This document shows positions 24,997 through 31,336 of a stretch of DNA of 64,000 nucleotides, in pieces. Within the stretch, counting starts at the first letter, position 1; the number at the start of each line of letters is the position of its first letter. The stretch covers positions 154,839 to 218,838 of the forward strand of contig NZ_POSN01000004.1 in the NCBI RefSeq assembly GCF_002994005.1. The letters run 5' to 3'. The stretch comes from Apilactobacillus quenuiae (GTDB taxonomy: Bacteria; Bacillota; Bacilli; Lactobacillales; Lactobacillaceae). The notes beneath the pieces are model-generated. The model had not been told where the DNA came from and searched no databases. It worked only from the letters and a program-made list of their open reading frames with translations. Both the position numbers and the translations under genes were made by a program.

Positions 24997-26052
24997 ATGG
25001 CTGATGAACGTAAAGCCGCTCTAGATGGTGCCTTAAAGCGAATTGAAAAGGAATTCGGTAAAGGTTCTATTATGAGAATGGGAGATCGTGGTGACACTAG
25101 AATTTCAACAATTCCAACTGGTTCGCTTGCATTGGACAATGCACTTGGAGTAGGTGGATTTCCTCGTGGAAGAATTGTTGAGATTTATGGACCTGAAAGT
25201 TCTGGTAAAACAACACTTGCGTTACAAGCGGTTGCTGAAGTGCAAAAGCAAGGCGGAACTGCTGCTTATATTGATGCTGAAAACGCATTAGATCCAGTTT
25301 ATGCTACTAATTTAGGCGTTAATATTGATGAATTGTTGTTATCACAACCTGATACTGGTGAACAAGGACTTCAAATTTGTGATGCCCTAGTTTCTAGTGG
25401 TGCTGTTGATATAGTAGTAGTTGATTCTGTTGCTGCATTAGTACCACGTGCAGAAATTGAAGGTGAAATGGGTGATGCCCATGTTGGATTGCAAGCTCGT
25501 TTAATGTCACAAGCTCTTAGGAAACTATCTGGATCTATTAATAAAACTAAAACTATTGCTCTATTTATTAATCAAATTAGAGAAAAAGTTGGAGTTATGT
25601 TTGGTAATCCTGAAACAACTCCTGGTGGTCGTGCTTTGAAATTTTATTCAACGATTCGATTAGATATCAGAAGAGCAGAACAAATTAAAAATGGTACTGA
25701 TGTTATAGGTAATCGTACCAAAATTAAGGTTGCTAAAAACAAGGTAGCTCCTCCATTCAAACGTGTTGAAGTTGATATTATGTATGGGGAAGGTATTTCT
25801 CAAACTGGTGAATTAGTAGATATGGCCGTTGACCAAGATATTATTAATAAATCAGGTTCTTGGTATTCATACGGAGATGAACGTATTGGACAAGGTAGAG
25901 AAAATGCTAAGCAATACTTAGTTGATAATCCTGACAAAATGAGTGAAATTAACAAAAAAGTTCGTGTTGCTTATGGTATGGATGAAGATGACTCCAAAGA
26001 AGAATCTGATGACAATAAATCCAAAGATAGTAAGCAAACTGAAAATAAATAG
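24997..26052 (+). CDS. recA: Recombinase RecA
   Basis: A 351-residue strand-exchange ATPase. Walker A GPESSGKT is at residues 65-72; the MAW motif region, the LexA-coprotease-linked core and DNA-binding loop L2 ([25 protein letters not shown]) are intact. The last 25 residues form the usual acidic, disordered tail ([13 protein letters not shown]). The ATG follows AAAGGAGG with good spacing. It is transcribed from its own SOS-controlled promoter and ends in a strong terminator. Confidence 0.99.
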
Positions 26053-26247: not shown

Positions 26248-27813
26248 ATGAATTATATATTAATTGATATAATCCTCGTAATCATCGCTGTTGTTTTGGG
26301 TACCTTTATTGGTATGTTTTTACACAAAAACATAGTTGAGAAAAAGTTGGCTATTGCTCATAAAAGTGCTAAAGACATCTTAGATAATGCTGAAAGACAA
26401 GCAAAAACATCTTCTAAAGAAAAAATTCTTGAAGCTAAAGAAAAAAGTAATCAGTATCGTTCTAATATTGAAAAAGAAATTAAGCAAAGACGTTTAGAAG
26501 TACAAAGACAAGAAAATCGCTTAATTCAACGAGAAGATGCTTTGGATAGAAAAGATGATGCTTTCGATAAAAGGGAAGATTCTCTCAATAAAAGAGATGA
26601 AAAACTTAACGCTAATCAAAAGAAGTTGGAGCAAAGACAGCAGGAAGCCAATAACTTGGTTGAACAACGTCAAACTGAATTGGAAAAAATATCTGCACTT
26701 TCTCAAGATGAAGCCAAGGGCTTAATTATTAAAGAAACTAGCGACAAATTAGCAGATGAGAGGGCTAAGATGGTTAAAGATAGTTATAATGAAGCCCAAA
26801 AAGAAGCAACTACCAATGCTAAAAATCTTGTGATTGAAGCAATACAACAAAGTGCTGCTGATATTGTGTCTGAGACTACTGTTTCAGTAGTTACTCTACC
26901 AAGTGATGATATGAAAGGTCGTATTATTGGTAGAGAAGGTCGTAATATTCGTACTTTTGAAACCCTTACGGGGATCGATTTAGTAATTGATGATACTCCA
27001 GAAGCTGTTGTATTAAGTGGATTTGATCCAATTAGACGTGAAGTTGCTAAAATGGCATTAGAAAAATTAATTAAAGATGGTCGTATTCATCCAGCTCGTA
27101 TTGAAGAAATGGTTGATAAAAGTCGCCGTGAACTTGATGAAAAGATTCAGGAAATTGGTGAAGAAACTGTCTTTGACTTAGGAATTCATTCTATGAATCC
27201 TGAAATGATTGGAATGATTGGTAAATTGAAATTCAAGATTTACTATGGTAGAAATGTATTAAGTCATTCAATCGAAGTCGCAAAATTATCTGGTGTATTA
27301 GCATCTGAACTTGGTGAAGATGTTGTTTTAGCAAAACGTGCAGGATTATTACATGAAATTGGTCGCTCTGTTAATAATGAAACTGAAGGTTCTCATATTG
27401 ATATCGGAATTGATTTAGCTAAAAAATATCATGAAAGTCCAGCTATTATTGATTCAATCGCCAGCGATGACGAAAATAGGAAACCTAAGTATATTATTTC
27501 AGAATTAGTAAGTATTGCTAATAAAATTGCAATTTCGAGACCTGGTGCTAAAAGTAAGTCATTAGAAAGCTTTGTTCATCGTCTTGAAAGTCTTGAAAAA
27601 ATTGGAGATAGCTTTGATCAAGTTAAAAAAAGCTATGCTATTCAGGCAGGTCGAGAAATTCGCATAATTGTTAAACCAGATAAATTATCTGATACGCAAG
27701 CAATTGTTTTAGCAAGAGACATAAAAAATAAAATTGAATCTGATATGGAATATCCAGGACATATTAAGGTGACAATTATTAGAGAAGTAAGATCAATTGA
27801 ATATGCAAAATAA
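26248..27813 (+). CDS. rny: Ribonuclease Y, with degenerate HD-domain metal ligands
   Basis: A 521-residue protein with the full RNase Y layout: N-terminal transmembrane helix (about 4-24), long charged coiled coil (about 30-200), KH domain (VVTLPSDDMKGRIIGREGRNIRTFE, GxxG intact) and HD domain. RNase Y is the membrane-bound endonuclease starting mRNA decay in many Firmicutes. The HD domain keeps H340, H369 and H383 but the signature HD is HE (E370), the conserved HH of IASHHGD is DD (D407, D408), and the Asp of the AAADALSAARPG block is Asn (N425, in SIANKIAISRPG). Those residues bind the catalytic metals in related proteins, so the nuclease may be weak or inactive, although the rest of the domain and the C-terminus are well conserved. 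The frame is clean. Confidence 0.95.
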   Translation: MNYILIDIILVIIAVVLGTFIGMFLHKNIVEKKLAIAHKSAKDILDNAERQAKTSSKEKILEAKEKSNQYRSNIEKEIKQRRLEVQRQENRLIQREDALDRKDDAFDKREDSLNKRDEKLNANQKKLEQRQQEANNLVEQRQTELEKISALSQDEAKGLIIKETSDKLADERAKMVKDSYNEAQKEATTNAKNLVIEAIQQSAADIVSETTVSVVTLPSDDMKGRIIGREGRNIRTFETLTGIDLVIDDTPEAVVLSGFDPIRREVAKMALEKLIKDGRIHPARIEEMVDKSRRELDEKIQEIGEETVFDLGIHSMNPEMIGMIGKLKFKIYYGRNVLSHSIEVAKLSGVLASELGEDVVLAKRAGLLHEIGRSVNNETEGSHIDIGIDLAKKYHESPAIIDSIASDDENRKPKYIISELVSIANKIAISRPGAKSKSLESFVHRLESLEKIGDSFDQVKKSYAIQAGREIRIIVKPDKLSDTQAIVLARDIKNKIESDMEYPGHIKVTIIREVRSIEYAK

Positions 27814-27836: not shown

Positions 27837-27892
27837 TTTTTGCTAAATCGGTGTAAAATTGACATTATATAAATAATGAATTGAGGATAAAT

Positions 27893-28696
27893 ATGAAAAT
27901 TTTGTTTCTTGGTGATGTTGTTGGAAATATTGGAATGAAAATGATAAAACAATATCTGCCAATCCTAAAGAGAGATTATAAACCACAATTAACAGTTGTT
28001 AATGGGGAAAATGCGACTTCCTTTGGTCGTGGAATTAATCGAAAAGTTTATAAAGAAATTATGGATGCTGGAGCTGATGTAATTACTCTAGGTAATCATG
28101 CATGGAATAATGAAGAAATATTTGATTTTATAGATAAAACTAAGAAATTAGTTCGTCCTTTGAATTTTCCAGGAAATGATGTTCCAGGTAATGGTTATAC
28201 CATTGTCAATATAAATGGTAGAAAAGTTGCTGTTATTAATTTGCAAGGTCGAATTTTTATGGATCCAATTGACGATCCATTTAGAATGATTGATGAATTA
28301 ATAAATAAATTAAAATCACAGGTAGATAATATTTTTATTGATTTTCATGCTGAAACAACTAGTGAGAAGCAAGTTATGTCTATGTATTTGGATGGAAGGA
28401 TTAGTGCAATTGTAGGAACTCATACCCATGTTCAGACTAATGATAATCGTATTTTAAAGAATGGAACTGCTTTTATGACTGATGCAGGAATGTGTGGCCC
28501 TACTGACGGCGTTTTAGGTATGAAATATGAAAATATTATTCATCGCTTTTTAACCCAACGCCCGACTAGATTTGAAGTAGAAGAAAGTGGTGGCGGGATT
28601 GTTTCTGGTTGCATTATTGATATGGAAAATAATAGTATGAAAGCTAAATCTATAAATAAAATATTAATTAGTCCAGATCATCCTTATCAAGGATAA
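27893..28696 (+). CDS. ymdB: YmdB family metallophosphoesterase (TIGR00282)
   Basis: A 267-residue calcineurin-like phosphodiesterase. Metal ligands characteristic of YmdB are intact: D8 (FLGDVVG), E and N in VVNGENATSFGRG, N and H in LGNHAWN, and the His residues in DFHAETTSEKQ and GTHTHVQT. In Bacillus subtilis it hydrolyses 2',3'-cyclic AMP and affects biofilm formation and RNase Y-related mRNA levels, so the position right after rny is meaningful. I start at the ATG at 27893, after TTGAGG; the TTG twelve bases upstream is part of that site. Confidence 0.93.
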   Translation: MKILFLGDVVGNIGMKMIKQYLPILKRDYKPQLTVVNGENATSFGRGINRKVYKEIMDAGADVITLGNHAWNNEEIFDFIDKTKKLVRPLNFPGNDVPGNGYTIVNINGRKVAVINLQGRIFMDPIDDPFRMIDELINKLKSQVDNIFIDFHAETTSEKQVMSMYLDGRISAIVGTHTHVQTNDNRILKNGTAFMTDAGMCGPTDGVLGMKYENIIHRFLTQRPTRFEVEESGGGIVSGCIIDMENNSMKAKSINKILISPDHPYQG

Positions 28697-28720: not shown

Positions 28721-31336
28721 ATGGTAAAATCAGCTAAATTAACCCCAATGATGGAACAATATCAAAAAGTTAAAGATCAATATAAAGATGCTTTTTTATT
28801 TTATCGTTTAGGTGACTTTTATGAAATGTTTGATGATGATGCTATAAAAGGTGCACAAATATTGGAATTAACTTTAACTGCTAGAAATAAAAATTCTAGT
28901 AATCCAATACCAATGTGTGGAATTCCGCATAAAGCAGTTGAATCCTACATTAACACTTTGGTAGATAAAGGTTATAAAGTAGCCATTTGTGAACAAATGG
29001 AAGATCCTAGGTCTGCAAAAGGAATGGTTAAACGTGCAGTTACACAATTATTAACACCTGGAACAAGGACTGAAACGGGTGCTGCAAATGCAAAAAATAA
29101 TAACTATTTAACGGCTTTAGAATATGATAAAAATAGTGAAAAATATGGTTTTGCTTATGCTGAATTATCTACAGGTGAACTAAAAACTAGTGTTTTAAGT
29201 AATATTGATACTTTAATTAATGAAATTATGAATTTACAAACTAAAGAAATTATTGTTGGTGATAATGTATCAAAAGATGATATTAATACCTTTAAAAAAT
29301 TAGGTGTTTTAGTTTCGCATCAATCTGATATTGATGTTAACGATAGTATGAGTGACTTAACTAATAATTTGCTTAATACTTTAGAAAAAAAGACAACTGA
29401 ACTTTTGATTACTTATGTTATCAAGACTCAAAAGCGTAGTTTATCTCATATGAAAGCCGCAGATTCGTATCGCCCTGCAGAGTTTTTAAAATTAGATCAT
29501 AATTCACAATATAATTTAGAATTAACCAAGAATATTCGTACTAATAAAAAGTCTGGAAGCTTATTGTGGTTATTGGATGAAACCAAAACTGCAATGGGCG
29601 GTCGTAAACTTAAAACATGGCTGGATCGTCCATTAATAGTTAAAAATCAAATTATTAAACGTCAAAATGCGGTTCAAGAGCTACTGGATCATTATTATGA
29701 ACGTAATGAAATTAGTGATATTTTGGTTAAAGTTTATGATTTAGAAAGACTAGCCGGTAAGGTTTCTTTTGGATCTGTTAATGGCCGTGATTTGATTCAA
29801 TTGCGATCTTCTTTGGAACAAATACCTAAGCTGAGGTATGAAATAACATCAATTGATTCTGATTCTTTTAATAATATTTATGATTTATTGGATCCAGTTG
29901 ATGATGTTGCTCAAATGATTCATGAATCTATTACTGAAGAACCACCAATTTCAGTTACTGATGGTGATTTGATTAAAGATGGATATAATAAAACTTTAGA
30001 TGATTATCGTGATGCGATGAATAACGGTAAAAAATGGATTGCTGAGTTGGAGAATAAAGAACGTAAGACAACTGGCATTAACAATCTTAAAATTGGATAT
30101 AATCATGTTTTTGGCTACTATATTGAAGTTTCTAAAGCTAATTTAAATAAGTTACCGGAAGATCGTTACGAGCGAAAACAAACATTAACTAACGCTGAAA
30201 GATTTTCCACTCCAGAATTAAAAGAAAAAGAAAAACTAATTATTGAAGCACAAGAGAAATCCAAAACCTTAGAATATGACATATTTAGCAAAGTACGTGA
30301 AAATGTAAAAAAATCAATTAAAAGGTTACAAAAATTAGCAAATGCAGTTTCGACAATTGATGTTTTACAAAGTTTTGCAGTCATATCCGAGAATTATCGT
30401 TTAGTTAAACCATCTTTGAATGATAATCATGATTTAGAAATTGTCGATGGTCGTCACCCAGTAGTTGAAAAAGTGATGGGGCACCAATCTTACGTTCCTA
30501 ATAATGTTAAGATGAATCCTGATACGAACGTATTGCTAATTACTGGTCCCAATATGTCTGGTAAAAGTACTTATATGCGTCAACTAGCATTAGCAGTCAT
30601 TATGACTCAGATTGGATGCTTTGTGGCTGCTAAATCAGCTCAAATGCCAGTTTTTGATCAAATATTTACTAGAATTGGTGCTGCTGACGATTTAATTTCT
30701 GGTGAAAGTACATTTATGGTTGAAATGAAAGAATCAAATGAAGCCATTCAAAATGCCACAGATAATAGTTTAATATTATTTGATGAAATTGGTCGTGGAA
30801 CTGCTACTTATGATGGGATGGCATTAGCCCAATCAATCATTGAATATGTTCACAATAATATTCATGCTAAAACTTTGTTTTCCACTCATTATCATGAGTT
30901 AACTGATTTAGAAAATACTTTACAGCATTTAACTAATGTTCATGTTGGGGCTATTGAGAAAAATGGTGAACTTGTATTTTTGCATAAGGTTAAACAAGGA
31001 GCTGCTGATAAGTCTTATGGTATTCATGTTGCCAAACTAGCAGGTTTGCCTGATAATTTATTATCACGTGCAGATAATATCTTAGAGCAACTTGAGAATG
31101 ATAAAAATGATGATAAGGTTATGAATATTGAAGCCTCACCAATTTCCGAAGATAATATTAAAAATGATGAAGAGCAACAATTATCATTGTTCAATGATAA
31201 TAGTGCGAAGAATAAGAAATACAACACTTCAAATGTTAAAATTATTAATGACATTAAGAACATGGATTTAATGTCCAAAACACCAATGGAAATTATGAAT
31301 GCTGTTTATAAATGGAAACAAAAAATTGAAAAATAA
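28721..31336 (+). CDS. mutS: DNA mismatch repair protein MutS
   Basis: An 871-residue mismatch recognition ATPase. The N-terminal mismatch-binding motif Phe-x-Glu is in [11 protein letters not shown]; the ABC-type ATPase has Walker A GPNMSGKS (609-616), Walker [12 protein letters not shown] and the STHYHEL switch. The C-terminal 60 residues carry the linker to the dimerisation helix. The ATG follows AAGGTAGG. The stop codon is directly coupled to mutL, so mismatch repair is apparently complete in this organism. Confidence 0.98.

Follow-up and report, generated by a model that had tools for sequence, protein, structure and literature searches.

Complementary degeneration of two RNase Y paralogues, one in the HD metal site and the other in the KH loop, in a clade of Lactobacillaceae

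In Firmicutes, mRNA decay is initiated to a large part by RNase Y, and an RNase Y gene with an altered catalytic site raises the question of what its product is kept for and which enzyme cuts in its place. Such a gene, termed rnyA here, lies in the window, i.e., the whole stretch of 64,000 nucleotides of Apilactobacillus quenuiae DNA analyzed in this study. The initial annotation described the gene as intact (521 residues, no frameshift), with the anchor, the coiled coil and the KH domain in place and the HD metal center eroded between positions 27265 and 27522. Our ORF reading and the Pfam matches agree with that description: the gene is an intact, frameshift-free ORF, the C-terminal region is present too, and the codons of residues 340 and 425 mark the two limits given, 27265 and 27522. 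The features of the locus are as follows.

24997..26052, plus strand: recA, the upstream neighbor of rnyA
26248..27813, plus strand: rnyA, RNase Y paralogue of the recA-rny-ymdB-mutS locus, 521 aa (TIGR03319; PF12072, PF00013 and PF01966)
26248..26862, plus strand: membrane anchor and coiled coil, RNase_Y_N match at residues 8-205 (PF12072, 207.8 bits)
26884..27075, plus strand: KH domain, delimited in this study as residues 213-276 (PF00013, 30.3 bits), conserved like that of single-copy enzymes
26929..26946, plus strand: GxxG loop of the KH domain, GREGRN, residues 228-233
27208..27552, plus strand: HD domain, delimited in this study as residues 321-435, with an eroded metal site (PF01966, 43.7 bits)
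27265..27267, plus strand: H340, the first His ligand, retained (residue reading, as for the next four)
27352..27357, plus strand: H369-E370, an altered HD motif with Asp changed to Glu
27394..27396, plus strand: H383, retained
27466..27477, plus strand: D407-D408-E409-N410, replacing HHGD
27520..27522, plus strand: N425, replacing the last Asp ligand
27553..27810, plus strand: C-terminal region, residues 436-521, conserved in RnyA and its paralogue RnyB (identity 0.70 in RnyA, 0.64 in RnyB and 0.72 in single-copy enzymes)
27881..28696, plus strand: ymdB, metallophosphoesterase gene downstream of rnyA (PF13277, 351 bits)
28721..31336: mutS-like ORF following ymdB, named from sequence alone

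The metal site of the HD domain, H...HD...H...HHGD...D, comprises eight positions, five of which are changed in the window RnyA: H340, H369, E370, H383, D407, D408, N410 and N425 stand against the consensus H, H, D, H, H, H, D and D. The four changes noticed at first (E370, D407, D408 and N425) were read correctly, as was the retention of H340, H369 and H383, and a fifth change, N410 at the Asp of HHGD, was added by our residue reading. Losses fall on the core residues (H-HD-D) and the second-site residues alike. The consensus was found at all eight positions in 67 of 67 comparison enzymes, except for H407 (66/67). These enzymes are 51 from single-copy Lactobacillaceae genomes (21 plus a further 30 from 22 genera) and 16 named ones. 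Of the named enzymes, 13 belong to organisms outside Lactobacillaceae, and L160 shares its source organism with L234 from the set of 51. PF01966 scored 43.7 bits for the window RnyA, 66.0 for RnyB and 70.5 for one single-copy lactobacillar enzyme. For judging the likely ligand residues of RNase Y, and for this alone, we used the HD domain of PgpH (4s1b), for which a review describes a two-metal mechanism (PMC12072042). In a profile alignment, H340, the HD pair, H383 and HHG of RNase Y fell on like residues, with the second stretch aligned very weakly (-1.0 bits). We regard the window RnyA as an RNase Y homologue by sequence and claim no nuclease role for it.

The initial annotation left room for a second rny in the genome, and one was found outside the window (G000:C2:296624-298204, minus strand, 527 aa). 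Its product, RnyB, shares 35% identity with RnyA in a local alignment. Both proteins matched TIGR03319 over the full length above the curated cut-off of 454.35 (704.2 bits for RnyA and 496.5 bits for RnyB), and PF12072 gave 87.7 bits for RnyB against 207.8 for RnyA (cut-off 32). RnyB keeps all eight HD positions (LLHDIGKA, AHHGD, ATADSMSGARPG and an intact last Asp). On the other hand, its KH loop reads GRDEQH as opposed to GREGRN in RnyA, and PF00013 (KH_1), which matches RnyA, gave no match in RnyB at E 0.01. Among solved structures, phmmer with RnyB found no match at E 0.01, and the matches of a profile search, to HD, KH and coiled-coil structures, were all distant. The two proteins carry opposite defects: the KH loop is kept and the HD site eroded in RnyA, and the HD site is kept and the KH loop degenerate in RnyB. 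With this opposite defect of RnyB, the eroded enzyme becomes one half of a complementary pair, and the finding is larger than first reported. Of the two genes in this genome that pass the RNase Y model, one probably does not encode a nuclease, judging from its residues.

The genus to which the window belongs is represented by 16 genomes, each with both paralogues. Throughout, the KH loop is present in RnyA and the HD site altered, whereas RnyB combines HHGD and LLHDIGK, or a motif close to the latter, with a KH loop that has changed (one residue near HHGD reads X in L005). Because the erosion is seen in 16/16 genomes, we rule out a sequencing error or a frameshift as the source of the eroded HD site. 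The initial annotation raised the question of whether the substitutions are shared by a clade; they are common to the genus and recur in other genera. We surveyed 397 Lactobacillaceae genomes, scoring the best three or fewer candidates per genome. In nine genera (g1, g5, g14, g16, g21, g26, g32, g34 and g36), at least two RNase Y matches were seen in every genome sampled, 105 by hand count. A tenth genus, g29, had none in seven genomes, and the genomes of the remaining 30 genera had one match each among those best candidates, except for G044. Re-searching 52 genome handles with RnyA gave matches of both kinds, RnyA-like and RnyB-like, in 51; the exception was again G044, in which the second match was not upheld. 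Two of the 51 are fragmented assemblies, one with RnyA in two overlapping pieces (G371) and the other with both RnyA and RnyB in pieces (G309), and these were excluded from the pair count below. No second copy was detected elsewhere in the order, as 172/172 genomes outside the family gave one match (E 1e-30, best seven or fewer candidates per genome) and five two-copy genomes of the family, searched alongside, gave two. As for the identity of the genera, g26 is Fructilactobacillus, with a stretch of 5557 bases identical to F. fructivorans DSM 20203, and g16 is close to Levilactobacillus hammesii (81-85%); among the single-copy genera, g3 is Paucilactobacillus and g25 is Latilactobacillus.

We read 45 RnyA/RnyB pairs residue by residue, namely those of 38 of the 52 re-searched handles and of 7 of the 16 genomes of the genus. 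The full KH loop was found in 45/45 RnyA and 0/45 RnyB, with GxxG kept in 15 of the latter. Conversely, all eight HD positions were complete in 3/45 RnyA and 37/45 RnyB, and the other eight RnyB differ only by Ser407, at the first His of HHGD. The single-copy enzymes of Lactobacillaceae have the full KH loop in 51/51 and all eight HD positions in 50/51, the exception being Ser407, and the 16 named enzymes keep the KH loop and the HD site. None of the single-copy enzymes read has an eroded HD site of the RnyA kind; among the genomes read, HD loss is confined to those with two copies. Altogether, the two RNase Y copies have undergone complementary degeneration across the clade. The pattern is incomplete on either side. 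In 13 of the 45 pairs, an eroded RnyA is accompanied by an RnyB that retains GxxG; KH loss in RnyB has thus gone only part of the way in g5, in g16 and in some members of g21. Among the 45 RnyA, 34 have a change in the core H-HD-D, and 8 of the 42 eroded RnyA keep this core, all without H408; residual metal binding is possible in these eight, and residual activity is possible in the RnyA of g16, in which the core survives. Ser at the first His of HHGD was seen in one otherwise complete single-copy enzyme (L239 of g9) as well as in the eight RnyB mentioned above, which suggests that H407 is not essential.

If RnyA were still catalytic, it would work with a changed metal center, such as one with a single metal or with Glu/Asn ligands, or on a new substrate. 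The core H-HD-D retained in 11/45 RnyA (three of them fully intact), H369 retained in 44/45 and the purifying selection on the HD domain (see below) would fit such an enzyme. However, the RnyA sequences have no common new ligand set: the substitutions at 407, 408, 410 and 425 vary by lineage, and H340 is replaced by Arg in 11/45. Moreover, positions 408, 410 and 425 are invariant in the 67 comparison enzymes and the 45 RnyB, and 407 is nearly so in the 67. We consider a catalytic RnyA of this kind improbable.

The two paralogues differ in which part is conserved. Mean pairwise identity of the KH domain is 0.89 in RnyA, 0.49 in RnyB and 0.92 in single-copy enzymes; the corresponding values are 0.63, 0.69 and 0.83 for the HD domain and 0.55, 0.28 and 0.52 for the coiled coil. 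RnyB is more divergent than RnyA in every part save the HD domain. Purifying selection acts on both proteins. In six groups of related species, the median dN/dS of the RnyA HD domain was 0.019-0.078, as estimated by simple counting, dS being close to 1 or greater in four of these groups, and the median was at most about 0.09 in all RnyA domains and groups measured. Because dN/dS is low, the HD domain of RnyA is best described from its sequence as a kept, folded, non-consensus domain rather than debris. These values contradict the idea of RnyA as a decaying remnant that was replaced by RnyB and is retained by chance. The broken RnyA in the two fragmented assemblies would suit a remnant, but the reading frame is intact in the 16 genomes of the genus and 38 other pairs, and the identity of the KH domain is close to that in single-copy enzymes. 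A decaying remnant is thus the least credible account, and we give it very little weight. The proposal of the initial annotation, that catalysis was lost and a scaffold function retained, is well supported at the level of sequence by the clade-wide, recurrent substitutions together with the purifying selection on the HD domain, and RnyA has likely lost catalysis.

The initial annotation further suggested that another nuclease may have taken over, and named RNase E/G and RNase J genes as ones to look for. This holds in outline, with a different candidate: it is likely RnyB, a second RNase Y with an intact HD site, that explains the eroded HD site of RnyA. RNase E/G was rejected, as no match was detected in 19 of 19 genomes. 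RNase J was rejected as a special replacement, as two RNase J-type genes exceeded the cut-off in 19/19 genomes; of these, 11 have two copies of RNase Y, 3 have one and 5 have none, and all three classes were alike. We also considered the Y-complex of B. subtilis. The family of its subunit YaaT (PF04468, PSP1) had no match in 30 of 31 Lactobacillaceae, the one match being in a single-copy genome (G027). As this lack of a match is shared by one- and two-copy genomes, YaaT does not track the second copy, and a link between the Y-complex and the second copy was dropped. Neither RNase E/G (0/19) nor YaaT (no match in 30/31) explains the RnyA/RnyB pattern. Apart from the two-copy genera, g29 appeared to have no RNase Y in seven genomes by protein search (two of them about two thirds complete; G043, G078, G107, G132 and G155, and also G177 and G197), and PF12072 and RNase E/G each had no match in five genomes; two RNase J-type genes were found above the cut-off in 5/5.

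The genes flanking the two paralogues are of distinct kinds. In tblastn searches, recA was found within about 2 kb of 30/38 RnyA loci as compared with 17/21 single-copy loci, and ymdB near 31/38 as compared with 6/21 (L088 and L130-L149; flanks of 2 kb, with the YmdB of the window genome as the query). At the other single-copy loci, ymdB may be located elsewhere or be more diverged. In the window genome, RnyB adjoins a metallophosphoesterase gene resembling 2',3'-cyclic-nucleotide phosphodiesterases (L089 5030..6586, on G000:C2), whose best NCBIfam matches are below the cut-offs. A phosphodiesterase-like gene lies near 32 of 40 RnyB loci (tblastn; flanks of about 4 kb, or of 6 kb at two loci), and the company of RnyB mostly includes the same HTH gene (29 loci) and an alpha/beta-hydrolase gene (25 loci); four of the five RnyB loci of g5 lack these neighbors. 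RnyB is found beside a metallophosphoesterase-like gene, as RnyA is beside the metallophosphoesterase YmdB.

In an unrooted tree of 111 sequences, the RnyA sequences lay on one side of a branch with a support of 93, and the RnyB sequences likewise with 99. The intact or lost state of the HD site changed at least three times on the tree of RnyA and single-copy enzymes (three losses if a complete site was never regained), and H408, D410 and D425 each changed at least seven times. In three genomes (G035, G071 and G089), an RnyA with an intact HD site stands beside an RnyB with an already altered KH loop; thus, the KH domain of RnyB probably changed first. In a quick rooted tree, RnyB was nested inside Lactobacillaceae beside g3/g6 (support 93), and an AU test against a clade of RnyA and RnyB gave a p of 0.034, with long branches in play. 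RnyB may have descended otherwise than by duplication of RnyA, and either a duplication or a transfer may lie behind it.

We propose, with moderate confidence, a split RNase Y in which a KH-bearing, catalytically dead RnyA and a catalytic RnyB act jointly in a heteromer. With both proteins held at the membrane by their anchors, pairing would involve the C-terminal region and the parallel coiled coil, as in the homodimers of B. subtilis RNase Y. The KH domain of RnyA would present single-stranded mRNA, the HD site of RnyB would cut it, and with mixed dimers the initiation of decay would need both genes. In the literature consulted, the KH domain is described as the RNA-binding module and the HD domain as the cutting module (PMC5289998, PMC11313650 and PMC11321564), and cooperation between them within an RNase Y dimer is still treated as a hypothesis. 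Another study presents a model of the B. subtilis dimer with a long parallel coiled coil, a second C-terminal contact and the KH domains near a central hole, and proposes a role of the C-terminal region in dimerization (PMC9775385). Both paralogues keep the anchor, a coiled coil of similar length and the C-terminal region, and the estimated coiled-coil lengths of RnyA and RnyB differ by at most seven residues in 45/45 pairs. A test of g-e' charges gave means of 1.7 for RnyA homodimers, 1.6 for RnyB homodimers, 2.3 for the RnyA/RnyB pairing, 1.9 for RnyA with RnyB of another genus and 4.9 for homodimers of single-copy enzymes. The mixed pairing exceeded the mean of the two homodimers in 25/45 pairs and both of them in 9/45. 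We infer all three parts of the proposal, namely the loss of catalysis in RnyA, which is likely, little or no RNA binding by the KH domain of RnyB, and the formation of a heteromer, which is moderately probable. The wider claim, that RNase Y of this clade is an obligate hetero-oligomer with recognition and catalysis on separate gene products, and that RnyA lost its HD site repeatedly and in parallel after the KH decay of RnyB had begun, could equally well prove right or wrong in our judgment.

The main alternative is a division of labor, with RnyA as a homodimeric, non-catalytic KH scaffold for a membrane degradosome and RnyB as an independent RNase Y binding RNA by other surfaces. The different neighborhoods of rnyA and rnyB and the GxxG kept by a third of RnyB (15/45) accord with two separate proteins. 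Nevertheless, a nuclease working alone would be expected to keep its KH loop, which is full in 51/51 single-copy enzymes and in 0/45 RnyB, and the HD loss in RnyA was seen only where RnyB exists, among the genomes read. A division of labor is accordingly a possible but rather doubtful reading. If, instead, the obligate hetero-oligomer is real, the pair is a natural separation-of-function set, and the KH and HD domains act in trans within an RNase Y dimer. A lineage with the intact KH loop on one protein and the intact HD site on another offers a clean test of domains working in trans, and a knockout of the recA-adjacent rny alone could be misread.

In open papers, we found no mention of paired RNase Y paralogues, subscription papers being mostly outside the scope of the search; papers on an Acetilactobacillus 'rny' and on a Fructilactobacillus match proved not to be about paralogues. 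RnyA and RnyB have the same order of anchor, coiled coil, KH domain, HD domain and C-terminal region as RNase Y (TIGR03319), which is single-copy in B. subtilis and S. aureus. In the usual RNase Y, KH loop and HD site are both intact in a single chain, which forms dimers; here the two intact parts are on different chains. PgpH is comparable to RNase Y in its HD residues but differs in substrate and architecture. The nearest known arrangement is RNase J1/J2 of Firmicutes, likewise two paralogous ribonucleases, which are not known to split binding and catalysis as RnyA and RnyB would. Unlike RnyA and RnyB, RNase J1/J2 are metallo-beta-lactamase enzymes of an unrelated fold, and RNase J-type genes are present here in addition to the pair. 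RNase J1/J2 are reported to occur as a hetero-oligomer, J2 being an inefficient 5' exonuclease (PMC3997798). As in a J1/J2-like arrangement, both paralogues are kept together in the lineage, i.e., in 16/16 genomes of the genus and in 51 of the 52 re-searched handles.
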